A stretch of 64,000 nt of DNA, taken from the NCBI GenBank assembly GCA_002086835.1, contig MVIG01000027.1, forward strand, positions 1-64,000. The letters run 5' to 3'. How positions within the stretch are numbered: the stretch's first letter is position 1; every line of letters starts with the position of its first letter. The notes beneath the pieces were generated by a model. The model was not told the DNA's origin and did not search any database. It worked only from the letters and a program-made list of their open reading frames with translations. The DNA is from Mycolicibacterium porcinum. Its GTDB lineage: Bacteria > Actinomycetota > Actinomycetes > Mycobacteriales > Mycobacteriaceae. Below are positions 29,729 through 62,583 of the stretch, one piece after another. The translations under genes and the position numbers were made by a program.

Positions 29729-29743
29729 GAGAACGAGATTCTC
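29729..29743. promoter_or_regulatory. GAGAA-N5-TTCTC palindrome upstream of DUF899 gene
   Basis: A perfect short dyad GAGAACGAGATTCTC 23 bases before the DUF899 start, in the divergent region with the SDR. It has the same GAGAA-N5-TTCTC geometry as the site at 57207, so a TetR-type regulator could bind here. It may be unrelated to the 54-64 kb sites. Confidence 0.45.
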
Positions 29744-43800: not shown

Positions 43801-46800
43801 ACCGATCGCGGCGAACACCGCGGGCCAGCAGCGTCCGACCAGCGCGTCCGGCACGACGGTGAGCGTCGGCGCCAGCGGTGCACCGAAGGTCGCGGTGACG
43901 CCGGTGTGATCGGCGACCTGCTCGGGGTTCCAGGCCACGGTGACCTTGGCGGTTCCGTCGACGACCGGCGGCAATGCGTCCGGGCCGTCGACACCGGCGG
44001 CGATGGCGAGCACCGACCGCATGGCGGTCGCGGCGTCGGCAACCTCGACGACCGGTGCGCCACCGCTGCGGATGGCCTCGGTCAGGGTGAACCGGATGTC
44101 GATCCAGGTTCCCGACAGCGGCACCGACAGCACCACGTGCCGATCGTCGGCGACCTCGAGCCGGGCCCCGGTGGACGGATGAGAAGCAGAACGCTTTGCA
44201 GACCCTTCGCGGACCAACCACTCTGAGGCAGGCGCGATCCGGTGCACCGGGTTGACCGAGGTGCGACCGGCCCACAACACGTCGGGGGCGTCGAGCAGCA
44301 CAGCCAGCGGACCGGTGACGTCGTCGCGGCCCTGACGGCGCGACAGCACGGCCTGCGGCTGGGCCCCGGCGGCCAGCACCTCGTCGACGGCGGCCTGCTC
44401 GAAGCGGTCGAGCAGCTCACCGACGGGCTCGTCGACCCGGGTGATGCCGGCCACCGCGGCAGTGCCGGGGATGACGCAGACCTGATCCGCGTCGTAGCGC
44501 GCATCGTGGGCCTGCCACAGCGAATCGCTGCGCCACCAACGGCGCACGTCCTTGTCGATGACCGGGACGAAGTTGACTGGCTTGCCGAGCGTCTTGCAGA
44601 GCTCGACGAAGAACGGCACGTCGGCCGGGTGCAGCTGCACGGCGGCGGCATCGGGGTAGGCCGAGACCAGCGCGGCCAGCGCGCCCTTCGGGTCCTCGAG
44701 CAGCTGCTCGTCGTCGAAGAGGGTCTCGATCGGGCCGAAATCCTTTGCGTGCAAACGTGCTTCGGCACGCTTGAGCATCTGTTCGAAGCGGTCCCGCCAG
44801 GTGACGTCCAGCCACTGCGAGTCGTCGCGCTTGGTGTCGGCGGTGCTGTTGCCCTCGCCGATCGCCAGTTCGATGTAGCGGCGCAGCCACTGCAGGTAGG
44901 TCATGTCGGCGACATCGCCGAAGTACGGCTTGGCGGTATTGGCCATCGCGGCGATGATCTCGTCGCGGCGGGCGGCCACCGCGTCGGCGTCACCGGCCAC
45001 CTCGTCGAGCAGCCGGCCACAGCGCGACGCGGTGTTGTCGATCTCGTGGATGTCGGCGCCGAGCTGGCTGCGGCCGGAGGCCATCCCGCCCGAAGCCTTG
45101 CCCGCACCCACCCATGCCTCGGTGCCCTTGGTGTCCACCAGCAGCTGCTTGACCTGCGGGCTCGTGGTGGCCTCGAGGGTGGCCATGGCGGCGGTGCCGA
45201 CCAGGATGCCGTCGATCGGCATCAGCGGGTAGCCGTGGGCGGCCGACCAGCGGCCGGACAGGTACTCGGCGGAACGCTCGGGGGTGCCGATGCCGCCGCC
45301 GACGCAGATGGTGATGTTGGACCGGCTGCGCAGCTCGGAGTAGGTGGCCAGCAGCAGGTCGTCGAGGTCCTCCCACGAGTGGTGGCCACCGGCGCGGCCG
45401 CCCTCGATGTGCACGATGACCGGCTTGGTCGGCACCTCGGCCGCGATCCGGATGACCGAGCGGATCTGCTCGACGGTGCCCGGCTTGAACACCACGTGGC
45501 TGATGCCCAGGTCATTCAGCTCGCCGATCAGCTCGACGGCCTCTTCCAGGTCCGGGATGCCGGCGCTGACGACGACGCCGTCGATCGGCGCACCGGACTG
45601 ACGGGCCCGCTGCACCAGGCGCTTGCCGCCGACCTGCAGCTTCCACAGGTACGGATCGAGGAACAGGGTGTTGAACTGGATGGCCCGGCCGGGCTCCAGC
45701 AGCTCACCCAACTCGGCGATGCGGTTGTTGAAGATCGGCTCGGTGACCTGCCCGCCGCCGGCGAGTTCGGCCCAGTGGCCGGCGTTTGCTGCAGCCGCGA
45801 CGATCTTGGCGTCGACTGTGGTGGGGGTCATACCGGCCAGCAGGATCGGCGAGCGTCCGGTCAGTCGGGTGAACTTGGTCGAGAGTTTGACCGATCCGTC
45901 GGGCAGGCTCACCACCGTCGGGGCGTAGCTCGTCCACGGCCGGGCCACCTCGGGCACCGCGCCGATGGTGAACAGATTGCGCTGGCCTCCGCGGGTGGCC
46001 GCGGGCACGATCCCGATGCCGAGCCCGCGCACCACGGGGGCGGTCAGGCGGGTCAGGATGTCGCCGGGGCCGAGGTCGAGGATCCAGCGGGCACCGGCCT
46101 CACTGATCTCTGAGATCTCGTCGACCCAGTCCACCTGGCTGACCAGGATGGCCTCGGTCATCGCGCGGGCGAGCTCGACGTCGATGCCGACGGCCTCGGC
46201 CCAACGCGCGACGATCTCGATGCCGTCGGCCAGACGCGGGGTGTGGAAACCGACCTCGACCTGCACCGGGTCGAAGACCGGGGCGAAGACCGCGCCGCCG
46301 CGGACTTTGCTCTTACGCTCGGCCTCTTCCTTCTCAGCGATCTGGTTGCAGTACAGCTCGAACCGCGACAGCTGCTCGGGTGTGCCGGTGATCACAACGG
46401 AGCGCCGGCCGTTTCGGATCGACAGCACCGGAGGCAGCACGGTGCGCACGTCCTGGCTGAACTCTTCGAGCAGCTCGTAGATGCGCTCGGGCTCGGCGTT
46501 GGTCACCGAAACCATCGGCGGGCGGTCACCCAGCACGGTGATCCCGCGGCGACGGGCCACGAGGGTGCCCGCCGCGCCGATCAGCTGTGCCAGTGCCAGC
46601 AGCTGCACATCCTTGGCGCCCTTGGCGGCCAGGGCCTCGACGGCCAGCACGCCCTGGGAATGCCCGGCGACGGCGACCGGCGGGGTGGCGACCAGGTCCA
46701 TGCCCTGTCGCGCCAGCGCCCGCACCGCGGCGATCTGGGTGAGCAGCACGCCGGGGACCGACACAGCGGCAGAGGTCAGCTGCTTGTCGGACGGCACCGG

Positions 46801-47121
46801 CTCCTCGGCGGCCAGGGCCCGGACCCACTGCAGCGGCTCGAACCCGATGGGCCGCACCACGACGAGTTCGGCGGCCACCGGCTCGAGCAGCAATTCGGCC
46901 TCGCCGGCCAGGGTCGCCAGCTCGGCTTCGATCCCGGCCGAGGACACCAGCTCCTCGAGCGTCTCCAGCCAGGCGCTGCCCTGGCCACCAAAGGCCACGG
47001 CGTAGGGCTCTCCGGCGCTCAGCCGGTCCACGAGGGCGTGGGTGGAGTCAGCCTGCCGACCAACGGATCCTTCATCGTCGTTGCGACCGGCGGACACCCG
47101 GTCGTGTTCGTAGATCGTCAC
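37873..47121 (-). CDS. fas: Type I fatty acid synthase
   Basis: A 3082-residue multifunctional synthase (Rv2524c, 3069 residues). The GTG at 47121 has GAGGAG 9 bases upstream. Domains in order: acetyltransferase with S155 (GHSQG); enoyl reductase (GGGQVTEPIFNNR); dehydratase with hotdog motif GDHNPIHTD near 1237; malonyl/palmitoyl transferase with CGHSVGEYTAL near 1443; ACP with the pantetheine serine in ALDSIESITDGASS near 1810; ketoreductase (VTGASKGSIASS) near 2137; ketosynthase with the catalytic Cys in VGACATAAVSVEEG near 2732, then HDTSTLANDPNE and LTGHAKGG. It makes C16-C18 and C24-C26 acyl-CoA for membranes and for mycolate synthesis. AcpS follows and activates it. Confidence 0.97.
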   Translation of the reverse strand: MTIYEHDRVSAGRNDDEGSVGRQADSTHALVDRLSAGEPYAVAFGGQGSAWLETLEELVSSAGIEAELATLAGEAELLLEPVAAELVVVRPIGFEPLQWVRALAAEEPVPSDKQLTSAAVSVPGVLLTQIAAVRALARQGMDLVATPPVAVAGHSQGVLAVEALAAKGAKDVQLLALAQLIGAAGTLVARRRGITVLGDRPPMVSVTNAEPERIYELLEEFSQDVRTVLPPVLSIRNGRRSVVITGTPEQLSRFELYCNQIAEKEEAERKSKVRGGAVFAPVFDPVQVEVGFHTPRLADGIEIVARWAEAVGIDVELARAMTEAILVSQVDWVDEISEISEAGARWILDLGPGDILTRLTAPVVRGLGIGIVPAATRGGQRNLFTIGAVPEVARPWTSYAPTVVSLPDGSVKLSTKFTRLTGRSPILLAGMTPTTVDAKIVAAAANAGHWAELAGGGQVTEPIFNNRIAELGELLEPGRAIQFNTLFLDPYLWKLQVGGKRLVQRARQSGAPIDGVVVSAGIPDLEEAVELIGELNDLGISHVVFKPGTVEQIRSVIRIAAEVPTKPVIVHIEGGRAGGHHSWEDLDDLLLATYSELRSRSNITICVGGGIGTPERSAEYLSGRWSAAHGYPLMPIDGILVGTAAMATLEATTSPQVKQLLVDTKGTEAWVGAGKASGGMASGRSQLGADIHEIDNTASRCGRLLDEVAGDADAVAARRDEIIAAMANTAKPYFGDVADMTYLQWLRRYIELAIGEGNSTADTKRDDSQWLDVTWRDRFEQMLKRAEARLHAKDFGPIETLFDDEQLLEDPKGALAALVSAYPDAAAVQLHPADVPFFVELCKTLGKPVNFVPVIDKDVRRWWRSDSLWQAHDARYDADQVCVIPGTAAVAGITRVDEPVGELLDRFEQAAVDEVLAAGAQPQAVLSRRQGRDDVTGPLAVLLDAPDVLWAGRTSVNPVHRIAPASEWLVREGSAKRSASHPSTGARLEVADDRHVVLSVPLSGTWIDIRFTLTEAIRSGGAPVVEVADAATAMRSVLAIAAGVDGPDALPPVVDGTAKVTVAWNPEQVADHTGVTATFGAPLAPTLTVVPDALVGRCWPAVFAAIGSAVTDSGFPVVEGLLSLVHLDHAAHLLAELPAEPAELTVTATASAATDTEVGRVVPVSVVVKAADGTELAKLEERFAIRGRTGEAELTDPVRAGGAISDNATDTPRRRRRDVTVGAPVDMRPFAVVSGDHNPIHTDRAAALLAGLESPIVHGMWLSAAAQHVLTATDGKPIPPAKLVGWTARFLGMVKPGDEVDFRVDRVGIDVGAEVVEVQARIGSELVMAATARLAAPKTVYAFPGQGIQSKGMGMEVRARSKAARKVWDKADKFTRETLGFSVLHVVRDNPTSLIASGVHYEHPEGVLYLTQFTQVAMATTAAAQVAEMREQGAFVEGAIACGHSVGEYTALACVSGVIELEGLLEAVFHRGSKMHDIVPRDERGRSNYRLAAIRPSQIDLADEDVETFVAEIAERTGEFLQIVNFNLRGSQYAIAGTVRGLEALEEEVERRREISGGKRSFILVPGIDVPFHSSVLRVGVDDFRRSLERVLPRDRDPELVVGRYIPNLVPRPFTLDRDFIQEIRDLVPAEPLDEILADYDTWRNERPIELCRKIVIELLAWQFASPVRWIETQDLLFIEEAAGGLGVERFVEIGVKNAPTVAGLATNTLKLPEYAHSTVEVLNAERDAAVLFASDTDPEPEPEAEEAVQAPASDAAPAAEAAPAPAAAPAAPSGGPRPEDLTFDAADATVGLIALSAKMRIDQIEALDSIESITDGASSRRNQLLVDLGSELNLGAIDGAAEADLGALKGQVSKLARTYKPFGPVLSDAINDQLRTVFGPSGKRPGYIAERVTKTWELGPGWAKHVTVEVALGTREGSSVRGGDLGGLHPGALASAADVDKVIDAAVAAVGARQGVPVSLPSAGGAGGGGVVDSAALNEFAEKVTGADGVLASAARTILGQLGLDTPVGAPEAATDAELIDLVTTELGSDWPRLVAPAFDGKKAVVFDDRWASAREDLVKLWLADEDEIDTEWPRLSERFEGAGHVVATQANWWQGKALAAGRTIHASLFGRIAAGAENPGTGRYSNEVAVVTGASKGSIASSVVGQLLDGGATVIATTSRLDDDRLAFYKELYRENARFGATLWVVPANMASYSDIDKLVEWVGSEQIESLGPQSIHLKDAQTPTLLFPFAAPRVAGDLSEAGSRSEMEMKVLLWAVQRLIGGLSTIGAERDIASRLHVVLPGSPNRGMFGGDGAYGESKSALDALVNRWSAESSWAERVSLAHALIGWTKGTGLMGHNDAIVSAVEEAGVTTYSTAEMAAMLLNLCTVEAKVAAANAPIKADLTGGLGDIKIDMAELAAKAREDMEAKAASASDDDEDEGAISALPSPPRGHNPAPAPEWADLDVDPADLVVIVGGAELGPYGSSRTRFEMEVSGELSAAGVLELAWTTGLVKWEDDPKAGWYDTQTGELVPESEIVERYHDAVVERCGIREFVDDGAIDPDHASPLLVSVFLDKDFSFVVSSEADARAFVSFDPEHTVARPVPDSSDWQVIRKAGTEIRVPRKTKLSRTVGAQIPTGFDPTVWGITPDMANSIDRVALWNIVATVDAFLSSGFTPTELMRWVHPSLVASTQGTGMGGMTSMQTMYHGNLLGRAKPNDILQEVLPNVVAAHVMQSYVGGYGAMVHPVGACATAAVSVEEGVDKIRLGKADLVIAGGFDDLTLEAIIGFGDMAATADTEMMRAKGISDSKFSRANDRRRLGFLEAQGGGTILLARGDLAAKMGLPVLAVVGYAQSFADGVHTSIPAPGLGALGAGRGGKDSQLARSLAKLGVGADDIAVISKHDTSTLANDPNETELHERLADSMGRSAGAPLFIVSQKTLTGHAKGGAAVFQMMGLCQILRDGVIPPNRSLDCVDDELATSGHFVWVREALDLRGKFPLKAGLVTSLGFGHVSGLVALVHPEAFIAALDPAERDDYRKRAEQRTLAGQRRLAGAIAGGRPMYEKPADRRFDHDVPEKRQEAAMLLNADARLGDDDLYVR

Positions 47122-47651
47122 TGGCGCTATCTCCTCGGTGCTGCTGTGGTTCTGCGGTGAATGGGGTCGCGGGTGGCTGTCGCGTGCGGTCTTCGGTGTC
47201 TGCGTGTCTGGGGCGGTGTGGCTGCCCGGGCGACAGGCCAACGGCGATTCAGCGTCGAATCAGGCTGGAACGTGGGCCGCCGGAGCTCTCCGGACGGTGT
47301 CACTCACATTCCCGCCGTACTAAGAGTGTCATAAGAACGGGTGGGCGTTTTCCGCCCAGATTGGTTACTGGCGAGTTCTACGCATGGGTAACCGCCGGTA
47401 ACGTAACGCGGCACCGACTGGCGGCCAAAGCCATTCGGGACAAACGTCCTGTTGGCAGGTGGTTACGGTCGAGTAGCCATAACTGCGCAGATCAAGGCAG
47501 TATTGTTATCGAATCGTTATCTAAATTTTCCGCCACATCGAAGGCCTCGAAGTGGCCTCCGACCAGCAGACAATCGGGCCGATTCTGTCCAGCGAATCCT
47601 GAGCGTCTGAACAAAAAGTTTGCTGGATTATCTTACTCGTCGGTAACTATT
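47122..47651. promoter_or_regulatory. fas upstream region with clustered GTAAC motifs
   Basis: 530 bases without a gene between fas and the Rv2525c-like gene. At 47363-47407 there are GGTTAC, then GGTAACC 18 bases later, then GGTAACGTAAC: the first pair is an inverted repeat and the last a direct repeat. A small GGGCG-N5-CGCCC hairpin lies at 47343-47357. The fas promoter is known to be controlled by FasR through inverted repeats, so these are candidate operator elements. I cannot confirm them against the FasR consensus. Confidence 0.45.
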
Positions 47652-52800: not shown

Positions 52801-53475
52801 CTACACCGGGTCGAACGACGAGATCAGCCAGTTGCCGTCGATCTTGCTCATCCCGACTTTGACCGCGCTGGCCGCGAAGCTCCCGTTGGGGTTCTCCTGG
52901 CTGGTGGTCGCCTGATTGACGAACACCAGCACGGTCGCCGAATCGGGGTGGATCTCCGAGACGGCCGAGCGCACGATCGCCGCGGCGGTCTTGACCGACT
53001 TCTGCTTGGCAGCGGGTGCGACGATCTCCTGCGTGAACTGGGTGTAGTACGACAGGAAATCTCCGGTCAGGTGTGACTTGGCGGCGGTGAAATCGCGGTC
53101 GAGGCTGTCGGGCGCATAGCTCAACAGGGCCACTGTGCCGTCGTTGGCAGCCTTGAGCACCGTCGCCGATGCGGCAGGCCCGGTCTGCTGGTCGGTGCGG
53201 AACTGGGCGAAGTACAGCCATCCGGCCAGGGCGGCCGACGCGATCAGCGCGACCACGAGTGCCAGCGGGAACCACTGCCTCTTGAGCTTCTCGAGCCAGC
53301 CCGCCGGGGCATCGGAAGCCGCCGCGTCCGAATCGCCGGTCGTATCGGCCTCTGCCTGCTGCTCGCCGGCTTCGACGGTTTCTTCCGTCGCGGCGGTCGC
53401 CTCGGTGTCCTCGACCTCGACGGCCGTCGAGGTGTCGTCGTTCACGGTCTCTTTGGTTTCCTGATCCAGGCTCAC
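52801..53475 (-). CDS. Mce-associated membrane protein
   Basis: A 224-residue Mce-associated (Mam) type protein: an acidic Thr/Glu/Ala-rich cytoplasmic N-terminus (1-65), one transmembrane helix (about 70-92, WFPLALVVALIASAALAGWLYF), then a periplasmic domain with an NTF2-like layout (AANDGTVALLSYAPDSLDRDFTAAKSHLTGDFLSYYTQF ... VLVFVNQATT ... SKIDGNWLISSFDPV). The GTG start overlaps the stop of the preceding gene (GTGA). Mam proteins stabilise Mce lipid-import complexes. No mce genes are in the window, so the pair is orphaned. Confidence 0.85.
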   Translation of the reverse strand: MSLDQETKETVNDDTSTAVEVEDTEATAATEETVEAGEQQAEADTTGDSDAAASDAPAGWLEKLKRQWFPLALVVALIASAALAGWLYFAQFRTDQQTGPAASATVLKAANDGTVALLSYAPDSLDRDFTAAKSHLTGDFLSYYTQFTQEIVAPAAKQKSVKTAAAIVRSAVSEIHPDSATVLVFVNQATTSQENPNGSFAASAVKVGMSKIDGNWLISSFDPV

Positions 53476-54341
53476 GGCACGAACTCGACTTTCGACAACT
53501 TGATCTGGTCACCCTCGCGGACCATGTTCACGGCAACCCGCCACGGTCGTGGCTGCTGGTTGGCCCCCGTGGTGTTGGTGACCTTGGTGTTCACCGCAAC
53601 CAGCACGACCGCCTTGTCGTCGCTCATGCTGTCCACGGCGGCGCCGGTGACGTTGGCCTCGGTGACCACCTTCGCGTCCTGAGCCAGCTTGACGAAGTCT
53701 TTCGACTGAGCCTCGAAATCTTCCCGGAACTCGCCGGTGGAGTTGTCGAGGATGTTCTTGACGGCATCTTGGGCGTGGTTGAAGTCCAGCGACATCAGGG
53801 TGACGACGGTCTGGCGAGCCGCTGCGGTGTACTCCGCTGTCAACTGCTCGCGGTGCTGGGCCTGTCGGTGGTGCCAGATCATCCAGCCGCTGGCTGCGAG
53901 CAGTCCGGCGATGACGATGAGCGTCAGGCAGCTCGCCAGCACCTTCCAGAACAGACGGGACACCCGCACTCGTGGCAGCCTCGATGACTTGGCCTCCACT
54001 AATTCTGCGTCCGCCCCGGTATCCGCTCCCTGGGCTTCCTCGACCGGCTGGGCCTCGACGGCCTCTGTCCCCGCGTCTGCCGCGGTCGTGTCGGTGATCT
54101 CCGGGGTATCGGTGTCGTCGGTCTCGCCGGCATCCGCCTCAGTGGCCTCCGTGGCGGTGGCGTCGGCAGCAGCCTCGTTGCGCAGCCGGATGGCGCGGGC
54201 ACGGGCGCGTGCGGCAGCCGCCACGGCCTCGGCCTCCGCGGCTTCCGCTTCGGCTTGCTCGGCCAGTTTCTGTGCGTCGCTCGGTGACGCGTCATCTTCG
54301 CTAGTATCGAGTACCGGCGACGAAGGCTTGCGGGACGGCAT
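53472..54341 (-). CDS. Mce-associated membrane protein, upstream partner
   Basis: A 289-residue Mam-type protein. Residues 20-55 form an Ala/Glu/Arg-rich helix (probably coiled coil), followed by an acidic Thr/Asp-rich region, a transmembrane helix (about 133-155), and a periplasmic domain built like that of the next gene (AARQTVVTLMSLDFNHAQDAVKNILDNSTGEFREDF ... VVLVAVNTKV ... WRVAVNMVREGDQIKLSKVEFVP). It is the first gene of the pair, with a GAGAATTACGTTATC element 35 bases upstream like those in the 54-64 kb module, which links it to that module. Confidence 0.85.
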   Translation of the reverse strand: MPSRKPSSPVLDTSEDDASPSDAQKLAEQAEAEAAEAEAVAAAARARARAIRLRNEAAADATATEATEADAGETDDTDTPEITDTTAADAGTEAVEAQPVEEAQGADTGADAELVEAKSSRLPRVRVSRLFWKVLASCLTLIVIAGLLAASGWMIWHHRQAQHREQLTAEYTAAARQTVVTLMSLDFNHAQDAVKNILDNSTGEFREDFEAQSKDFVKLAQDAKVVTEANVTGAAVDSMSDDKAVVLVAVNTKVTNTTGANQQPRPWRVAVNMVREGDQIKLSKVEFVP

Positions 54342-54375
54342 GCCGACCTCCTGTCCGTTCAGCAGCCTGCTTAAC

Positions 54376-54390
54376 GAGAATTACGTTATC
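54376..54390. promoter_or_regulatory. GAGAAT-type operator upstream of Mce-associated pair
   Basis: ACGAGAATTACGTTATC, an imperfect GAGAA-N5-TT(A/C)TC dyad in the 143-base gap between the ligase gene and the Mce-associated gene. It shares ACGAGAATTAC with the site at 60173-60183. Confidence 0.55.
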
Positions 54391-54484
54391 AGTTTGCGGT
54401 AGTGACCCGAGAGTACATCATCGGCAGTAGGCACTTAAATGGCCATTTACCTGCGGAAATGATGTTTACGCGCTGTGCGTTCAC

Positions 54485-55990
54485 TTAGCCCGGATTGGCC
54501 GCTACCTGCGCCTCAAGCTCATTCTTCATCACCTTGCCGGTGGCGTTGAGTGGCAGTTCGTCGAGGAACTCGACATACCGGGGCACTTTGTAGCCGGCCA
54601 TTCGCTCGCGGCTCCAGGCGATCAATTCCTCGGCGACGGTCGCCGGAGCACCCGGCTCGTCCCGCAGCACCACGAACGCCTTGCCGACCTGGCCCATCCG
54701 CTCGTCGGCGACACCGATGACAGCGACCTGCGCGATCGCCGGATGCTCCAGCAGGAACCCCTCGATCTCGGCCGGATAGGCGTTGAATCCGCCGACGATG
54801 AACATGTCCTTCTTGCGCCCGACGATCCGCAGCCGACCGGACTCCGTGAATTCGCCGAGGTCGCCGGTGTGCAGCCAACCGTCGGCGTCGATCGCCTCAG
54901 CGGTGGCGGCCGGATCATCCAGGTAGCCCTGCATCACGTTGTATCCGCGCACCAGCACCTCGGTGTCGTCGGCGATGCGGACCTCGACCCCCTCACAGGG
55001 CAGCCCGGCGGTGGTGGCCACCTCCTCGGCCGAGTCGCCGGGGCGGGACAGCGTGACGTTGCCCGCCTCGGTGAGGCCGTACCCGGTCATCAACGTCTGG
55101 AATGGCAACTCGTCCCGGATGCGGCGCACGAGTTCCACCGGGATGTCGGCGGCACCGGTCACCCCGGCCCGCAGCGTCGACAGCCGGTCACGGTCCGCGA
55201 CAGCCAGTAGTGAGTGGTACAGCGTGGGTGGACCCGGCAGCATCGTGATGCGTTCGCGTTCAATGAGTTCCACGACGTTGTCGACGTCGAACACAGCCAA
55301 CGGAACCATCGTGGCGCCCCGGAGGAAGGACGCCACCAGCCCCGCCTTCAACCCGAAAGTGTGAAAGTACGGGTTGATCATCAGATAGCGGTCACCCTCG
55401 CGCAGATCCGCCAGGGTGGCCCACTCCTCGTAAGCCCGCAGCGTCTGGCAGTGGTTCATCATCGCGCCCTTGGGCCTGCCGGTGGTACCCGAGGTGAAGA
55501 TGACATCAGCGATGTCGGTGGGCGCGACGTCCCGCGTGAAAGATCTGCCACTGGCCAGGAAGTCAGACTTCAGGTCGATGACCGAGACATCGAGACCAGT
55601 CTCGGCGAAGGTGAAATCCTGCCCGAGGAAACCCTTTTGGACCATCACCGCCTTGGCACCGCTGCGCGCCACCACGTCGGCGGCCTCGTCGGTCTTGAAC
55701 CGGGTGTTGACCGGGACCAGCACGCCGCCAGCGGCCATGATGCCGAAGGCCGCGATGATCCACTCGGCCGAGTTGGGGGCCCAGACCGCGACCCGGTCTC
55801 CTTTATCGACGCCGAACTCGGCGAACGCACCCGAGGCTTTCCGGATGCGCTGCGCGAGTTCGGTGAAGGACAGGCGCAGCGGACCGTCGGCCCCGGCCGG
55901 ATTGTCGCCATAGTCGACGACCGCCTCCGCGTCGCCGAACCGGTCCGCTGCGCTCAAGACCATCGCGGGGATGGTCTGCCACGATGACAC
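54485..55990 (-). CDS. Acyl-CoA synthetase, FadD3-like
   Basis: A 501-residue AMP-forming acyl-CoA ligase from a GTG three bases after the amidohydrolase stop. Motifs: P-loop IFTSGTTGRPKGAMMNH, YGLTEAG, TGDLGEFTESGRLRIVGRKKDMFIVGGFNAYPAEIE (A8 hinge) and C-terminal PLNATGKVMKNEL with the catalytic lysine. Block by block it resembles FadD3, the ligase that activates the cholesterol ring-derived propanoate HIP, for example in NPYFHTFGLKAGLVASFLRGATMVPLAVFD. So it probably adds CoA to a cyclic or branched carboxylic acid. It forms an operon with the amidohydrolase gene. Confidence 0.87.
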   Translation of the reverse strand: MSSWQTIPAMVLSAADRFGDAEAVVDYGDNPAGADGPLRLSFTELAQRIRKASGAFAEFGVDKGDRVAVWAPNSAEWIIAAFGIMAAGGVLVPVNTRFKTDEAADVVARSGAKAVMVQKGFLGQDFTFAETGLDVSVIDLKSDFLASGRSFTRDVAPTDIADVIFTSGTTGRPKGAMMNHCQTLRAYEEWATLADLREGDRYLMINPYFHTFGLKAGLVASFLRGATMVPLAVFDVDNVVELIERERITMLPGPPTLYHSLLAVADRDRLSTLRAGVTGAADIPVELVRRIRDELPFQTLMTGYGLTEAGNVTLSRPGDSAEEVATTAGLPCEGVEVRIADDTEVLVRGYNVMQGYLDDPAATAEAIDADGWLHTGDLGEFTESGRLRIVGRKKDMFIVGGFNAYPAEIEGFLLEHPAIAQVAVIGVADERMGQVGKAFVVLRDEPGAPATVAEELIAWSRERMAGYKVPRYVEFLDELPLNATGKVMKNELEAQVAANPG

Positions 55991-55993
55991 GCG

Positions 55994-57184
55994 TCAGGTC
56001 GTAACGAGGCGACCGAGATTGCCACCCATGATCTTGGCCTGGTCCTCGACAGCGAGGTGCTCAAGGGCGGTCACGTAGTGGGTTGGCTCCGCCAGACCCT
56101 CGGGATGCGGCCAGTCGGACCCGTACAGCACCTGATCGACGCCGATCAGGTTGATCAGGTCGTCGATGCCTTCCTCGTAGAACGGGCTGACGTAGATGCG
56201 GTTCTTGATCTCCTCGATCGGGTTGCCCAGGAAGGCCTCCGGGGCCTTCTTGTAAACCTCGGCCATCGAATCCAGAAGCGGGAACATCCATTTCGAGCCG
56301 GCCTCGACGATGCCCACCTTGAGCTTCGGATGGCGGAACAGCGCGCCGTGGATCACCCAGGAGGCCACGGCATCCTGGATCGGGCGCCACTCGTTGAGGA
56401 TCGACATGGCGTTGGTCTGGAACGGCAGCATCTCCTGCACCGTGCCATCCCATTCCGAGGTGTAGCGCGAGTAGCCGCTGTCCGAGGAATGCATGCCGAC
56501 GAACACGTCGTACTCGACGCAGCGCTCCCAGAAGGGGTCGAACTCGGGCAGCGCGAACGACCGCGGGCCACGGAAGCCGGGCACCGGGGCCGGGCGGACG
56601 AGGATGGCCCGGGCACCGCGCTTGACCGCCCATTCCAGCTCCTCGATCGCCTTCTCGACGATCGGCAGGGTGATGACAGGGGTGACGAAGATGCGGTTCT
56701 GGTAATTGAAGCCCCAGACCTCGTCGAGCCACTGGTTGAGCGAGTGGATGATCACGTGGATGGCGACCGGGTTGTCGCGCAGCCGCTCCTCGATGAGGCT
56801 GGCCAGCGTCGGGAACATCAGCGAGCGGTCGACGCCGAGCTCGTTCATCAGCTCCAGGCGCGGAGCCGGCTCGAAGAAGGCCGGGATGGACCGCATCGGC
56901 TCACCGAACAGCTCACGTTTGCTCTTGCCGTCAGGGTTGCCGAACTTGAAGTACTCCTCCCAGGCGCCCGGCTTGGCGACATGCGAGAACGTCGGGTTCG
57001 GGATGTAGTTGCTGATGTGGCCGTCGATCGCGATCTTGGTACGGCCGTTGACCTCGACGTACTGGACGAGGTCCTTGTACTCCTTGGGGAGGTACTTGGT
57101 CATCGCCTCCGGCGGCTCGTAGAGATGGTTGTCCGCGTCGAACAGCGGAAACGGAATGTCGACCCTATGCGACAGTTGCCCCAT
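55994..57184 (-). CDS. Amidohydrolase-2 family metal-dependent hydrolase
   Basis: A 396-residue protein of the ACMS decarboxylase/amidohydrolase-2 group. The N-terminal FDADNHLYEPPEA is a DxDxH-like metal site; VGMHSSDSGYSRY and YGSDWPHPEGL (the Asp of the barrel end) complete a TIM-barrel metal centre. Members hydrolyse or decarboxylate ring compounds; in mycobacteria large sets of them lie beside steroid and lipid catabolic genes. GGAAAACTCC lies upstream. A perfect GAGAATCATATTCTC operator sits 23 bases before the start. It leads an operon with the FadD3-like ligase. Confidence 0.85.
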   Translation of the reverse strand: MGQLSHRVDIPFPLFDADNHLYEPPEAMTKYLPKEYKDLVQYVEVNGRTKIAIDGHISNYIPNPTFSHVAKPGAWEEYFKFGNPDGKSKRELFGEPMRSIPAFFEPAPRLELMNELGVDRSLMFPTLASLIEERLRDNPVAIHVIIHSLNQWLDEVWGFNYQNRIFVTPVITLPIVEKAIEELEWAVKRGARAILVRPAPVPGFRGPRSFALPEFDPFWERCVEYDVFVGMHSSDSGYSRYTSEWDGTVQEMLPFQTNAMSILNEWRPIQDAVASWVIHGALFRHPKLKVGIVEAGSKWMFPLLDSMAEVYKKAPEAFLGNPIEEIKNRIYVSPFYEEGIDDLINLIGVDQVLYGSDWPHPEGLAEPTHYVTALEHLAVEDQAKIMGGNLGRLVTT

Positions 57185-57206
57185 GGAAAACTCCTTTGCA
57201 ATTCGA

Positions 57207-57221
57207 GAGAATCATATTCTC
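57207..57221. promoter_or_regulatory. Perfect GAGAAT-CAT-ATTCTC operator
   Basis: A 15-base perfect dyad 23 bases upstream of the amidohydrolase gene, typical in size for a TetR operator. It shares the GAGAAT half site with three other promoters in the next 3 kb and with the Mce-associated promoter. Confidence 0.75.
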
Positions 57222-57263
57222 ACTTGATGCCTACCGCAATGCCCATCTCGGCCCGAGGGCTGC

Positions 57264-58805
57264 TCACCGGGCGATTGCAGCAATCTCCTGACGGATGACG
57301 AACTTCTGCACCTTCCCGCTGGCCGTGCGGGGAAAGTCTTCGGCCAGATGTAGCTCTTCCGGCCATTTCTGCCGGGCGACGCCACTGGACTCGAAATGCG
57401 ACCGGACCTGATCGAGGGTGGGCATCGTGCCGCCGTCGCGCACCCGCAGCACGGCGGCCACCCGCTCCCCCAGGCGTGCGTCCGGAGCGGCCACCACGAT
57501 CGCCTCGATCACATCCGGCAGACCGAGTAGCACCTCCTCGACCTCCAGCGCGCTGATGTTCTCGCCGCCGCGGATGATGAGATCGGTGGTGCGGTCGGTG
57601 ATGGTCAGGTACCCGTCCTCGTCCAGCACCCCGATGTCCCCGGTGCGGTACCAGCCATCGGCGTCGAAATGCTTTGCGGTGAGGGCATCGTCGGTGTAGC
57701 CGAGGCACAGGTCCGGTCCGCGGCTGAAGATCTCGCCGTCCGGCCCCAACCGGATCTCCACGCCGGGCCGCACGTTGCCGTCGGTGTACAACCGCTTCGC
57801 CTCCGGGGCCCCCGCACCCGATCCGGTGATCGAGGGGTGCTCGGTGCTGCCGTAGGAGCGGAAGACGAACAGGCCCAGATCGGCCAGCCGCCGCGTGACG
57901 GCCGCCGGCACCGTCGAGCCGCCAAGACCGACCGTGGTGAACCGCGCCAGATGGCGTTCGTCGAACCGTGGATGGTCCATCAGGCTCGTGACGAAATACG
58001 GCGGCCCACCGCCGATCGACAGCTCGTCGCGCTCGATCAACTCCAGCACCTTGCCGGGATCCCAGACGTCGCACAGATCGATCGGCGCGCCTTCGAGTAC
58101 GGGGATCAGGAATGCGCCGAGCATGCCGATGAAATGGCCTACCGGGGTGGCGGTGAGCTGGCGGCCGCGGTCCGGCGGGTAGTTCTCCAGCAGCTGGCGG
58201 GTTTCGAAGCCCAGCGTCTGATGACTGTGGATGACGCCCTTGGGCTCGCGGGTGGTTCCGGACGTGAACGCGATCAGCGCAGGCGCTGCCGGATCCGCGG
58301 TCAGGGTGCCGCTCATCGGTTCCTCGGCGACGAGCTCGGTGAACGACGATCGACCGACCAGGGCGATGATCGGCACCTCGGCGCACAGGTCGGGCTCGAA
58401 CTTCATCCGCCCGAACTGCTCGGTGCTGATGAACACCTTCGGCTGCGCCGTGGCCATGATGTGGCCGAGTTCCTTGCGTCCGTAGAAGTGCACGATCGGC
58501 ACCGTGACCGCGCCGAGGAAGGCCGACGCCCAGAATGCGACCGCTGCCTCCATCCAGTTCGGCAGTTGCATGGCCACCACGTCGCCGGGTCCGACGCCGC
58601 GATCCCGGAGCCCGGCCGCCAGGCGCCGGGCAGTGTGCTCGACCTCCCCGAACGTGCCCTGATACGGACGTGTCGCGGAGTGCACGTAGAACCCGGCATC
58701 GGGGCTGGCCGCCAGACCGTCGGCCAGCATCTGGCCCAGGGTTTCCGGCCGCCACCAGCCTTCTTCGACGTACCGTTTGGTCAGCTCAACGGGGATGTCG
58801 CGCAC
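57264..58805 (-). CDS. Acyl-CoA synthetase (AMP-forming)
   Basis: A 513-residue acyl-CoA ligase. Motifs: IAFTSGTTREPKGVIHSH (P-loop), FRSYGSTEHPS, GYTDDALTAKHFDADGWYRTGDIG, DRTTDLIIRGGENISALEVEE (hinge) and PRTASGKVQKF with the catalytic Lys. The start is taken as the GTG at 58805 (VRDIPVELTKRYVEEGWWRPETLG); no ribosome site precedes it, and the operator lies within 15-30 bases, so a leaderless message is likely. It resembles mycobacterial ligases for cyclohexane- or steroid-derived acids more than long-chain FadDs, but the substrate is open. It is divergent from the enoyl-CoA hydratase gene. Confidence 0.85.
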   Translation of the reverse strand: MRDIPVELTKRYVEEGWWRPETLGQMLADGLAASPDAGFYVHSATRPYQGTFGEVEHTARRLAAGLRDRGVGPGDVVAMQLPNWMEAAVAFWASAFLGAVTVPIVHFYGRKELGHIMATAQPKVFISTEQFGRMKFEPDLCAEVPIIALVGRSSFTELVAEEPMSGTLTADPAAPALIAFTSGTTREPKGVIHSHQTLGFETRQLLENYPPDRGRQLTATPVGHFIGMLGAFLIPVLEGAPIDLCDVWDPGKVLELIERDELSIGGGPPYFVTSLMDHPRFDERHLARFTTVGLGGSTVPAAVTRRLADLGLFVFRSYGSTEHPSITGSGAGAPEAKRLYTDGNVRPGVEIRLGPDGEIFSRGPDLCLGYTDDALTAKHFDADGWYRTGDIGVLDEDGYLTITDRTTDLIIRGGENISALEVEEVLLGLPDVIEAIVVAAPDARLGERVAAVLRVRDGGTMPTLDQVRSHFESSGVARQKWPEELHLAEDFPRTASGKVQKFVIRQEIAAIAR

Positions 58806-58817
58806 ATCGGTGATGTT

Positions 58818-58836
58818 ATTCTCATCAAACGAGAAT
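58818..58836. promoter_or_regulatory. ATTCTC-N7-GAGAAT operator between ligase and hydratase
   Basis: ATTCTC (58818-58823), 7 bases, GAGAAT (58831-58836): outward-facing half sites in the 58-base gap between two divergent genes. The same TTCTC-N7-GAGAA spacing recurs at 60163-60179. Confidence 0.7.
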
Positions 58837-58863
58837 GCCAATCCCGGAACTGGAGAACGTTTG

Positions 58864-59580
58864 ATGGTCGACCTTGAAATCGACGGCGAACTGGCGGTCG
58901 TCACGATCGACCGCCCGCAGGCGCGCAATGCCATCTCGCTGGACACCATGGATGCGCTGAACAAGGCGCTGGACGGGGCCGTCGGCGCCCGCGCCCTGGT
59001 GATCACCGGTGGCGGCGACCGCGCCTTCGTGTCCGGCGGCGACCTCAAGGAACTGGCGGCACTGCGCACCGAGCTCGAGGCCTCCGAGATGGCCTGGCGG
59101 ATGCGCACGATCTGCGACCGCATCGCCGGTTTCGACGGACCGGTCATCGCGGCACTCAACGGCCACGCGCTCGGCGGTGGGGCCGAAGTGGCGGTGGCAG
59201 CAGACATCCGAATCGCCGCCGATGACATCAAGATCGGCTTCAACCAGGTGGCTTTGGCGATCATGCCGGCCTGGGGCGGGGCCGAACGGCTCGCCAAACT
59301 GGTCGGCCCCAGCCGGGCGCTACTGCTGGCCGGGACCGGCCGCATCCTCGGCGCACGCGAAGCCGAGCAGGTCGGGCTGATCGACCAGGTGATTCCCCGG
59401 GCCGAGTTCGCCGAGACGTGGCGGACGACGGCGCAACTGCTGGCCCGGCGTCAGGCCGGCGAGGTCAAGCGCGTGATCAACGGGGTTTCGACGACCGAGG
59501 CGGTTGCCGCGTTCGCCCGGCTCTGGTGCTCCGATGAGCACTGGGCCGCCGCGGACAAGGTGATGAACAAGGGCAAGTAG
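58864..59580 (+). CDS. Enoyl-CoA hydratase family protein
   Basis: A 238-residue crotonase. The ATG at 58864 follows TGGAGA. Motifs: VVTIDRPQARNAISL, DRAFVSGGDLKEL (oxyanion loop) and AALNGHALGGGAEVAVAADIRIA, then GFNQVALAIMPAWGGAERL, where the usual catalytic-Glu position of hydratases should be checked. It would hydrate or isomerise an enoyl-CoA made from the acid activated by the divergent ligase. Confidence 0.85.
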   Translation: MVDLEIDGELAVVTIDRPQARNAISLDTMDALNKALDGAVGARALVITGGGDRAFVSGGDLKELAALRTELEASEMAWRMRTICDRIAGFDGPVIAALNGHALGGGAEVAVAADIRIAADDIKIGFNQVALAIMPAWGGAERLAKLVGPSRALLLAGTGRILGAREAEQVGLIDQVIPRAEFAETWRTTAQLLARRQAGEVKRVINGVSTTEAVAAFARLWCSDEHWAAADKVMNKGK

Positions 59581-59676
59581 GCGGCGCTCAGCCGCCCAAC
59601 TCCCGTACGGGATCACTGCCGTCCCAGCCCATGGCCTGTCCGCGCACGTACGCCGCCATACCCGCCGACGCCTCAG

Positions 59677-60105
59677 TCAGCGGCTCTCGACGATCGCGGC
59701 CCCGGTCGGCGGTTCGAAGTAGGCGAAGCGCAACCCTTCCCCCTCGCCCCCGGACCACACCCGAGGCCAGCCGGCCTCGGCCAGCTTGGCCATCGCAGCA
59801 TCGAAATCTTCTGCCCAGTAAGCCAGTTGGTGGAATCCTCCCCCGGTGGCGGCCAGGAACTCGGTGAAGATGCTGGGCGTCTCGTCGAGTTGCTGGATCA
59901 GCTCGACTTGTAGATCACCGCTGTTGGACAACGCGAGGGACAGCGTCACCTCGCACGGAGCATCTCGATAGGTCACCCGCTGTGACAGGCCGCGGATCAC
60001 GAACCACGGGCCGACGCCCATCGTGAGCCAACCCGCTATGGCGTCGTCCAAGTCGGTCACCACGTACCCGATCTGGCGGACCTCGCCCGGTAGCACCTCG
60101 CCCAC
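59677..60105 (-). CDS. VOC (glyoxalase-fold) protein
   Basis: A 142-residue vicinal-oxygen-chelate protein from a GTG preceded by AAGGAGG. The two beta-alpha-beta3 modules are visible: VRQIGYVVTDLDDAIAGWLTMGVGPWF and GFHQLAYWAEDFDAAMAKLAEAGWPRVW. Histidine and Glu at VELIQQ, FHQLAY and AAIVE may bind a metal. Similar mycobacterial VOC proteins lie in steroid and lipid catabolic clusters, where epimerase or lyase roles are proposed. Divergent from the DUF35 gene. Confidence 0.82.
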   Translation of the reverse strand: MGEVLPGEVRQIGYVVTDLDDAIAGWLTMGVGPWFVIRGLSQRVTYRDAPCEVTLSLALSNSGDLQVELIQQLDETPSIFTEFLAATGGGFHQLAYWAEDFDAAMAKLAEAGWPRVWSGGEGEGLRFAYFEPPTGAAIVESR

Positions 60106-60162
60106 GCCGCCTCCTTGTATCCGTGCTGGCTCAGCTGCGATCGTGAGCCTACCGAGAGTCGG

Positions 60163-60179
60163 TTCTCACTAGACGAGAA
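60163..60179. promoter_or_regulatory. TTCTC-N7-GAGAA operator upstream of DUF35 gene
   Basis: TTCTC (60163-60167), 7 bases, GAGAA (60175-60179), continuing as TTACATTTCC. It lies 26 bases before the DUF35 start in the divergent region with the VOC gene, with the same spacing as at 58818. Confidence 0.7.
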
Positions 60180-60205
60180 TTACATTTCCAGTTATCGTCA
60201 GCGAC

Positions 60206-60637
60206 GTGTCAACACAGATTGCTCTGGCGCCCGAGATTTCGACGTGGCCGGACGCCGAACCCCAGCTGATCGGCAGCCGCTGCACCGACTGCACGGCCAC
60301 CACCTTCCCGGCCCAGGCCCGCTGCCCCAAGTGCTCCGGCGGCAACACCGAACAGGTGCGCCTGCCCCGCCGCGGCACCGTCATCGCCTGGACCACCCAG
60401 GGCTTCCCACCCGGCGCCCCCTACAAGGGCCCCACCGGAAAAGCCTTCGTGCCCTTCGGCGTCGGCCTCGTCGAACTCACCGACGACACCGGACCCGTCA
60501 TCCGCGTCGAAGGCCGCCTCACCGAAAACGACCCGGCCAAACTGCGATTCGGCATGGACGTCGAACTCACCATGATCCCGTTCACCACCGACGAAGACGG
60601 CAACGAAATTGTCACCTTCGCCTTCCAGCCGGTGTAG
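60206..60637 (+). CDS. DUF35 Zn-ribbon/OB-fold protein, thiolase partner
   Basis: A 143-residue protein with a rubredoxin-like zinc ribbon (CTDC about 26-29, CPKC about 40-43) followed by an OB-fold (RRGTVIAWTTQGF ... FGVGLVELTDDTGPVIRVEGRL). These proteins bind next to SCP2-type thiolases; in cholesterol side-chain breakdown the DUF35 domain of ChsH2 combines with the aldolase Ltp2. The next gene, 12 bases on, is such a thiolase. The GTG start lacks a ribosome site and may be leaderless. Confidence 0.9.
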   Translation: MSTQIALAPEISTWPDAEPQLIGSRCTDCTATTFPAQARCPKCSGGNTEQVRLPRRGTVIAWTTQGFPPGAPYKGPTGKAFVPFGVGLVELTDDTGPVIRVEGRLTENDPAKLRFGMDVELTMIPFTTDEDGNEIVTFAFQPV

Positions 60638-60649
60638 AGAGGCACAACC

Positions 60650-61795
60650 ATGAGCAATGATGTCGCCATCATCGGCGTCGGCCTGCACCCCTTCGGCCGG
60701 TTCGACAAGACCGCGATGCAAATGGGCTCGGAGGCAATCCAATTCGCCCTCGAGGATGCCGGCCTGGAGTGGAAGGACATCCAGTTCGGCTTCGGCGGCA
60801 GCTACGAGGTTTCCAACCCCGATGCGGTGACCCGCCTGGTCGGGCTGACCGGCATCACGTTCACCAACGTGTTCAACGCCTGCGCCACCGCCGCCAGTGC
60901 CATCCAGCAGACCGCTGACACGATCCGGTTGGGCAAGTACGACATCGGGATCGCGATCGGCTTGGACAAGCACCCCCGCGGCGCATTCACCGACGACCCG
61001 GCCAAACTCGCGCTGCCGCAGTGGTATGCCGAGAACGGCCAGTTCGTCACCACCAAGTTCTTCGGCATGAAGGCCAACCACTACATCCACAAGCACAACA
61101 TCTCCGAGGAGACGCTGGCGCGGGTGGCCAACAAGAACTTCCGCAACGGCGAGAAGAACCCGAATGCGTTCCGGCGCAAGGAGATTTCCGTCGAGGAGAT
61201 CATGGCATCGCCGGTACTGAACTACCCGTTGCGGCAGTACATGTTCTGCGCGCCGGACGAAGGCGCGGCCGCGGTGATCATGTGCCGTGCCGACCTCGCC
61301 CACAAATACACCGACAAGCCGGTATACGTGCGGGCCAGCGAGATCCGGACCCGCACCTTCGGCGCGTACGAGGTGCACGCCACCTCGGCGCCGCTCGACG
61401 AGGATCCCTCACCGACGGTGTTCGCGGCCAAGGCCGCCTACGAAGCCGCGGGCATCGGGCCCGAGGACGTGGACATCGCCCAACTGCAGGACACCGATGC
61501 GGGTGCCGAGGTGATCCACATGGCAGAGACCGGACTGTGTGCCGATGGCGAGCAGGAGAAGCTGCTGGCCGACGGCGCAACCGAGATCGGCGGATCGATC
61601 CCCGTCAACACCGACGGCGGCCTGATCGCCAACGGTGAGCCGATCGGCGCTTCGGGCCTCCGCCAGATGCACGAGTTGGTGCGTCAGCTCCGTGGCGAGG
61701 CAGGCGAACGCCAGGTACCGGGCACCCCCCGCGTCGGCCTGGCCCAGGTGTACGGCGCACCGGGCACGGCCTCGGCCACCATCCTGTCGCTCTAG
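60650..61795 (+). CDS. SCP2-type thiolase/aldolase (Ltp family)
   Basis: A 381-residue lipid-transfer-protein thiolase. GAGAGG precedes the ATG. Key parts: VAIIGVGLHPFGRF, FNACATAASAI (cysteine at the thiolase nucleophile position), MKANHYIHKHNISEETLARVANKNFRNGEKNPNAF, DVDIAQLQDTDAGAEVIHMAETG, and C-terminal QVYGAPGTASATIL in place of the usual CGG loop. Ltp proteins with DUF35 partners cleave beta-hydroxyacyl-CoA side chains by retro-aldol reaction. With the P450, ligases and hydratase nearby it completes a side-chain degradation set. A hairpin terminator follows. Confidence 0.88.
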   Translation: MSNDVAIIGVGLHPFGRFDKTAMQMGSEAIQFALEDAGLEWKDIQFGFGGSYEVSNPDAVTRLVGLTGITFTNVFNACATAASAIQQTADTIRLGKYDIGIAIGLDKHPRGAFTDDPAKLALPQWYAENGQFVTTKFFGMKANHYIHKHNISEETLARVANKNFRNGEKNPNAFRRKEISVEEIMASPVLNYPLRQYMFCAPDEGAAAVIMCRADLAHKYTDKPVYVRASEIRTRTFGAYEVHATSAPLDEDPSPTVFAAKAAYEAAGIGPEDVDIAQLQDTDAGAEVIHMAETGLCADGEQEKLLADGATEIGGSIPVNTDGGLIANGEPIGASGLRQMHELVRQLRGEAGERQVPGTPRVGLAQVYGAPGTASATILSL

Positions 61796-62563: not shown

Positions 62564-62583
62564 TGCTAAGCAGGTGCTCAGCA
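62564..62583. promoter_or_regulatory. TetR operator candidate between tetR and P450
   Basis: TGCTAAGC-AGGT-GCTCAGCA, a 20-base dyad with 7 of 8 arm positions matching, centred in the 188-base divergent region. It is the best operator candidate for the neighbouring TetR protein. Confidence 0.65.

Follow-up and report, generated by a model that had tools for sequence, protein, structure and literature searches.

A conserved GAGAAT/ATTCTC operator family and its candidate TetR regulator in a large catabolic locus of Mycolicibacterium porcinum

We analyzed a 64,000-nucleotide stretch of the Mycolicibacterium porcinum genome (contig MVIG01000027.1, positions 1 to 64,000; called the window below, its positions being those of contig C23), in which several promoter regions carry the inward dyad GAGAAT-N3-ATTCTC or imperfect forms of it. 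Judging from sequence comparisons, it is probable (roughly 0.86) that these dyads are operators of a single TetR regulon and are read by R1, a TetR protein encoded outside the window. The operator family reaches far past the window: six of the seven exact sites of the genome fall in one large catabolic locus spread over three contigs (C24, C20, and C23). The other contigs of the same genome that are mentioned below are C37, C81, C15, C9, C29, and C1.

Results

Dyads were scored as GAGAAT-N3-ATTCTC, with the reversed pattern as a control (a lenient one at up to two mismatches, given codon bias). The window holds one exact copy, two at up to one mismatch, and five at up to two, against expectations of 0, 0.05, and 0.82 under a first-order Markov model; none of 300 simulations equalled any of these counts, the maximum at up to two mismatches being four. 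All five sites are intergenic, in a window with 6,791 intergenic bases out of 64,000 (gene calls from our own simple codon-usage script), and four of them lie within 54301-60250, where the expectation is 0.08. The four dyads listed in an earlier, sequence-only reading of this DNA (54376, 57207, 58818, and 60163, the last scored here from 60162) are all present. That reading placed them in front of five genes; we count about eight genes around the four control regions.

Promoters of orthologues were compared in five genomes (G020, G034, G087, G006, and G108), and rows were kept if the site had at most two mismatches here or in two others. This left 29 rows, some of them unconvincing (e.g., C20:11215, 68726, and 76333). 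The operator at 57207 is exact in all five genomes, each time 37 bp ahead of the start of the amidohydrolase-fold gene 55994-57184, and those ahead of R1 (-137) and of the acyl coenzyme A (acyl-CoA) dehydrogenase gene C20:23809 (-45 to -50) are likewise exact in all five. Zero or one mismatch was found at every available orthologue of C20:25131 (5/5), C20:53437 (5/5), and C20:54942 (4/4), and one or two ahead of the cytochrome P450 gene C20:38830 and the short-chain dehydrogenase/reductase (SDR) gene C20:3042 (5/5 each) and the aldehyde dehydrogenase gene C20:1300 (4/4, its orthologue not being found in G108). The weaker window sites also have at most two mismatches at most orthologues: 54376 in two of two (G020 and G087, two mismatches at the same -49 position), 58831 in two of three (G020 and G087), and 60175 in three of four. 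For the last, the dyad 60175-60189 has two mismatches here, in G020, in G087, and in G006, and three in G034, which also has three at the ligase site.

Across the 6.96-Mb genome, the exact dyad occurs seven times and the reversed control not at all; at up to two mismatches, there are 95 dyads versus 10 reversed. In a sample of 198 genomes of the genus, drawn from a larger group, 163 carry the exact dyad and 35 lack it; 126 of the carriers have six to eight copies (median, 7). The reversed pattern is nonzero in three. One-mismatch sites number 12 genome-wide, of which seven are in C20 or C23; further ones outside the locus are C1:664534 and C15:99348, C29:60143 and C81:22881 lie within predicted coding sequence, and C9:91828 is intergenic. 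Separately, three GGGAAT/GGGAAC-N3-ATTCCC dyads (C15:65867, 66512, and 66548) adjoin two TetR-like genes and perhaps represent another operator family.

The three contigs of the locus adjoin, as seen from their orthologues, which lie in order in G020 at about 5355 to 5554 kb. There, the outer exact sites (5364035 and 5546698) are 183 kb apart; G020 carries extra internal DNA, and here the stretches of the three contigs enclosed by the outermost exact sites total about 119 kb plus gaps. Over C24:1-26288, C20, and C23 (184 kb, with about 8% of bases intergenic), 19 of 20 sites at up to two mismatches are intergenic, a count that takes in C23:29729. Exact sites precede genes for a CoA ligase (C24:16753), an acyl-CoA dehydrogenase, a thiolase, the amidohydrolase-fold protein with a FadD3-family ligase, and R1. 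Sites with one or two mismatches that are kept in relatives precede genes for a P450, the DUF35/Ltp pair, the Mce-associated proteins, and an aldehyde dehydrogenase operon leading into mce: after C20:1300, a CoA transferase gene and then yrbE-mce genes follow about 295 to 790 bp further on the same strand (five genomes), and the mce genes may be cotranscribed from the C20:1300 site. C23:74261-75926 encodes two MlaE proteins. Of the six genes that come next, the three that were scanned carry MlaD and Mce4_CUP1 domains; an Mce import system has this order, with MlaD/Mce proteins encoded after two YrbE/MlaE permeases. C20 otherwise encodes P450s (one weakly resembling P450cin/CYP125), acyl-CoA dehydrogenases, CoA transferases, and a Rieske oxygenase, and C24 encodes an alpha/beta hydrolase, MhpA- and MhpB-like enzymes, and two KstD-like proteins. 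Thus, hits group at genes for CoA ligases, Ltp, P450s, and Mce proteins; neither random scatter nor a lack of conservation at orthologues was observed. Together with the 3-bp spacer and a sequence unlike that of KstR2 operators, this supports the proposal in the sequence-only reading of a separate TetR-type regulon linking import and breakdown. Regions of M. branderi and R. ruber show related gene types, and megablast to plasmids returned fragments only.

One exact site lies far from the catabolic locus. C37:260821 is upstream of genes for a 2-oxoacid:ferredoxin oxidoreductase (KOR), which we name korAB. Six sites were fetched from six genomes listed with exact sites; the korAB arrangement is exact also in G020, G034, G049, and G063, and the sites of G139 and G026 precede other genes. 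In G063, the korAB site is the sole exact site left.

R1 is a 217-amino-acid protein (C20:63555-64208) with a TetR_N domain (PF00440, 31.3 bits versus a cutoff of 24). All 80 named loci, the best 80 of 386 relatives (84 to 99% identical), have an exact site 128 to 149 bp ahead of R1, and R1 thus has a palindromic operator in its own promoter, as is typical of autoregulated TetR regulons. This site is kept in G034, G006, and G108, where the orthologue of the divergent hydratase gene was not found in the fetched stretch. Past that hydratase gene, C20:60997-62484 encodes a protein with HAMP and adenylate/guanylate cyclase domains. With R1 counted as present in the genus at E values up to 1e-80 (weaker matches in G009, G098, and G155 being scored absent), R1 and exact sites occur together in 160 genomes, R1 only in three (G056, G089, and G177), sites only in three (G044, G070, and G147), and neither in 32. 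G056 and G177 have a one-mismatch site 141 and 48 bp ahead of R1, respectively. G070 has one site in a 73%-complete assembly, and the neighborhood of the single G044 site showed no gene from the fetched stretches. At the family level, with R1 counted at E values up to 1e-40, 45 of 46 R1 genomes have an exact site, as do 12 of the 155 others, in a single copy each.

Several observations weigh against assigning the sites to R1 or against the sites themselves. The 80/80 figure spans only the closest of the 386 relatives. R1 has no adjoining site at up to one mismatch in G026, G063, and G089, and in G026 and G063 none at up to two mismatches within 1.5 kb. G147 has eight exact sites and no close R1; its assembly is 93% complete in 700 contigs, one of the sites begins 94 bp from the end of a contig, following the C20:60034 orthologue, and the absence of R1 is likely an assembly gap. 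Three of the four window sites of the sequence-only reading are imperfect, the conserved near-sites C20:38830 and C20:3042 shift position between genomes, and C20:77188 (one mismatch) is not kept in relatives. Finally, R1 is inherited together with the locus, and the phylogenetic profile therefore cannot single it out: the presence of the TetR protein inside the window (T62474) matches that of exact sites just as often as R1 does, in 192 of the 198 genus genomes.

T62474 is the nearest TetR protein to the window sites, and its tally (158 genomes with both, 1 with the TetR gene only, 5 with sites only, and 34 with neither) also speaks for it. We nevertheless find it very unlikely that T62474 reads the sites. 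Its promoter carries a different dyad, TGCTNAGCANNTGCTNAGCA, conserved at zero or one mismatch in six of six genomes (here and in all five compared), and no GAGAAT dyad at up to two mismatches here or in two relatives. Moreover, G139 has R1 and four exact sites and no T62474 match at an E value of 1e-20, in an assembly that is 93% complete. R1 is favored because an exact site precedes R1, whereas TGCTNAGCANNTGCTNAGCA precedes T62474. T62474 is part of the locus and, judging from these promoters, probably not the reader of the GAGAAT operators. A one-mismatch copy of TGCTNAGCANNTGCTNAGCA at C20:64547, ahead of an SDR gene adjoining R1, suggests a second control layer.

It would also be surprising if the sites were read by another R1-like TetR protein (the class of 33 to 38% identity, e.g., C81:48964) or by another local regulator (T40436 or the IclR-type C24:7008). 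The C81-type class shares with R1 the stretch SLRSFY in the recognition-helix region, but G009, G098, and G155, with a weak R1-like match only (its class assumed from the E value), have no exact site. T40436 (C20:40436-41092), whose gene diverges from that of a CYP150-like P450 with near-sites, was the first suspect and was dropped, being present in just 71 of 198 genomes.

That the sites form an unrecognized arm of the cholesterol regulon, read by KstR, we regard as a slim prospect. KstR half-sites are similar, and the parts of the literature available describe the KstR motif as palindromic and 14 bp long; the spacer of the present sites, however, is 3 bp, versus the 2 bp of KstR operators. 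According to the available part of PMC3388012, a KstR orthologue occurs in all mycobacteria analyzed but M. leprae, yet exact sites are lacking in 35 of the 198 genus genomes. By eye, the KstR2 motif AnCAAGnnCTTGnT is absent at the sites, in keeping with the statement in the sequence-only reading that cholesterol operators differ in sequence.

A chance or codon-usage origin, suggested by the small window excess at up to three mismatches (16 versus 9.1, reached by 1 of 100 shuffles and 3 of 300 simulations) and by chance-like single sites in distant genomes, is practically negligible given the intergenic placement of the locus sites, the fixed distances to gene starts, and conservation; for the conserved sites, the comparisons refute it.

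Operator geometry bears on the reader as well. The form with a 4-bp spacer, searched as a control, is itself clustered in 49 of 198 genus genomes (clusters include G085:C1:1061199-1128290 and G179:C45:183520-241956) and has no copy in this genome. In eight of eight tested genomes with the 4-bp form, there is, besides R1, an R1 paralogue (29 to 31% identity) on the same contig as the 4-bp sites and 2 to 63 kb from them. Its recognition-helix region reads SLRAFY versus SLRSFY in R1; T62474 and T40436 differ there. Sites with the 4-bp spacer occur in 40 of the 43 genomes with at least three R1-like matches and in 9 of the 155 others, a rough control, with match numbers drawn from 15 scored candidates per genome and the paralogue not named thereby. 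The 4-bp form is probably a second regulon. These observations support the idea that R1-type proteins read GAGAAT half-sites.

Two of the window sites take a different form. The genome has only two exact copies of ATTCTC-N7-GAGAAT, at C23:58818 and C23:64008, both within the locus; of ten one-mismatch copies, six are in the locus (C20:2815, C20:54786, C23:60162, C23:65545, C23:65657, and C24:12052), and at up to two mismatches there are 79 copies versus 14 of the reversed control. Around 54 sites at up to one mismatch from six genomes, which include orthologues and are not independent, 15-mers at an offset of 22 bp average 7.54 mismatches, versus 8.3 to 9.7 at other offsets. The N7 sites of the sequence-only reading are therefore best read as tandem operators with a 22-bp pitch. 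At 58809-58845, the two inward dyads have three (58809-58823) and two (58831-58845) mismatches. Binding at such tandem operators may be cooperative.

Features of the window and the exact sites of the genome are collected in Table 1. The orthologue of the second Mce-associated-like gene, 52801-53475, was found in all five comparison genomes. The sequence-only reading called the product of 55994-57184 an amidohydrolase: the fold is borne out, and a role for proteins of this type as plain hydrolases is doubtful given the PDB matches. The product is possibly a dinuclear monooxygenase by similarity; a Pfam scan found no Rieske protein among its scanned window neighbors. We take 60650-61795 to encode a candidate Ltp2-like aldolase. 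Elsewhere in the window, the dyad GAGAACGAGATTCTC (29729-29743, one mismatch) precedes a DUF899 gene and lies 25 kb away from the module, and an open reading frame of about 3,100 amino acids (37873-47241, minus strand) has a Tsukamurella plasmid match over its 5' part that is annotated as a type I polyketide synthase.

Table 1. Operators and genes of the window (positions of C23 unless a contig is given)
Feature	Position	Strand	Basis or remark
Mce-associated-like protein, second of pair	52801..53475	-	No Pfam family; named in the sequence-only reading
Mce-associated-like protein behind the 54376 operator	53472..54341	-	Pfam TPR_21 only, below cutoff; named in the sequence-only reading
Imperfect operator	54376..54390	.	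GAGAATTACGTTATC; GAGAAT-TAC-GTTATC, 2 mismatches; before Mce-associated pair
FadD3-family acyl-CoA ligase, downstream of amidohydrolase-fold gene	54485..55990	-	NF005801, 746 bits versus cutoff 657
Amidohydrolase-fold protein	55994..57184	-	Pfam PF04909; PDB 4dzi 277 bits, PtmU3 78 bits
Exact operator	57207..57221	.	GAGAATCATATTCTC; GAGAAT-CAT-ATTCTC, 0 mismatches
AMP-binding acyl-CoA ligase	57264..58805	-	Pfam AMP-binding 171 bits (scanned as 57264-58823); start GTG 58805 is our own reading
Tandem operator	58809..58845	.	ATTCTC-N7-GAGAAT exact at 58818-58836; two half-degenerate dyads, centers 22 bp apart
Enoyl-CoA hydratase, divergent from ligase	58864..59580	+	Pfam ECH_1 on 58825-59580; ATG 58864 read from sequence
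VOC/glyoxalase-fold protein	59677..60105	-	Pfam Glyoxalase_4
Tandem operator	60154..60189	.	GTTCTC-N7-GAGAAT at 60162-60180, 1 mismatch to ATTCTC-N7-GAGAAT
DUF35/ChsH2-type OB-fold protein	60206..60637	+	Pfam PF01796, PF12172
Ltp-type thiolase-fold protein	60650..61795	+	Pfam thiolase domains; NCBIfam lipid-transfer models below cutoffs
Local TetR protein, T62474	61869..62474	-	Pfam TetR_N
Operator-like double dyad of another type	62564..62583	.	TGCTNAGCANNTGCTNAGCA; between T62474 and P450
CYP150A-type P450	62663..63955	+	716 bits to CYP150A6, PDB 6dcd
Exact sites in the genome	C20:24848, C20:63418, C23:57207, C24:6899, C24:12043, C24:18189, C37:260821		

Discussion

If R1 is the reader, its dimer would probably bind GAGAAT-N3-ATTCTC, and where there is no good dyad, as at 58818 and 60162, R1 would probably sit on two weak dyads 22 bp apart, as a pair of dimers on the same side of the DNA. 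We imagine that R1 without ligand would repress its own gene, most control regions of the catabolic locus, and korAB, and that a CoA thioester or oxidized intermediate would release it; that R1 is a repressor rather than an activator is what we infer. Joint control of the catabolic locus and korAB would make sense because KOR runs alongside beta-oxidation, as described for M. tuberculosis in the available part of PMC2773412. Ring catabolism would then be predicted to be coupled directly, through regulation, with the KOR branch of the tricarboxylic acid cycle.

What the locus degrades is perhaps a cyclic isoprenoid or steroid-like compound, with the last ring aromatized and opened by meta cleavage; we would argue for and against this with equal force. 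The suggestion is based on the gene set of the locus and on the oxidation of beta-ionone by CYP150A5 of M. marinum (PMC6237146, in the part available). One can go further and envision R1 as a so far undescribed master switch, in one of the largest catabolic loci of mycobacteria, that coordinates the uptake of polycyclic isoprenoids through Mce with their activation and ring breakdown, also sets the ferredoxin-reducing 2-oxoglutarate (KOR) branch through korAB, uses two operator geometries, and has a distant paralogue with a second, 4-bp regulon; for this composite picture, we see even odds.

The motif string matched no paper, and among the matches listed, none describes this regulon by its title or the start of its abstract, subscription papers being outside the search. 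The motif table of PMC4482099, in the part available, covers 30 regulators as logos only, and overlap with one motif is possible. Further background came from parts of PMC3068626, PMC4757040, and PMC6768106.

The locus occurs in most mycobacterial species sampled and has its own Mce transporter. The motif and a named candidate regulator give this uncharacterized locus a gene list and provide the amidohydrolase-fold oxygenase candidates with a pathway, and finding what inactivates R1 would be a route to the substrate.

Parts of the locus resemble known systems. MhpA and MhpB of the 3-(3-hydroxyphenyl)propionate pathway have counterparts in C24:4293-5972 (1073 versus a cutoff of 853) and C24:3413-4336 (527 versus 291), both behind the exact site C24:6899. 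In contrast to that pathway, they lie here amid two KstD-like proteins that fall below the cutoffs for named ketosteroid dehydrogenases, one of which exceeds the cutoff of a general flavin adenine dinucleotide-binding subfamily.

The product of C20:53437-54759, a further PF04909 protein encoded behind a conserved site, matches DitZ (PDB 8uyr) at 362 bits. DitZ is presumably tied to diterpenoid catabolism, going by its gene name; a literature search for its function returned, among the matches listed, only unrelated titles. Two PF04909 genes (C20:25131 and 26248) and a small Rieske gene (C20:27390) reproduce the order aibH1-aibH2-aibG. PDB 6m1w/8ful, AibH chains, are matched as well, and C20:26248 matches 8sm7 at 205 bits. 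AibH1H2G is a three-component monooxygenase with related amidohydrolase-fold oxygenases (AROs), such as PtmU3 and SfbO. In the available parts of the sources, the AibH1H2G system is described (PMC7782822, PMC10811679), 8sm7 is listed as an ARO (PMC10811679), and the clue used for AROs is a small Rieske protein next to one with PF04909 (PMC10811679), the arrangement seen here for C20:25131, 26248, and 27390. Near the trio, a search for a reductase gave no Pfam family at 1e-6 for C20:27779-28687. By homology, the products of C20:25131-27782 and C20:53437-54759 are likely dinuclear monooxygenases.

A further parallel is with KstR and KstR2. They too are TetR-type regulators with a short palindrome, as far as the available source texts go; the KstR2 motif given there is unlike the present sites, and the regulator (R1 here) and gene set are different. 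The KstR and KstR2 regulons likewise pair an Mce importer with CoA-dependent ring and side-chain catabolism. In that precedent, one motif yielded the list of cholesterol genes and made the catabolism testable, and the GAGAAT/ATTCTC motif could do the same for the locus described here.

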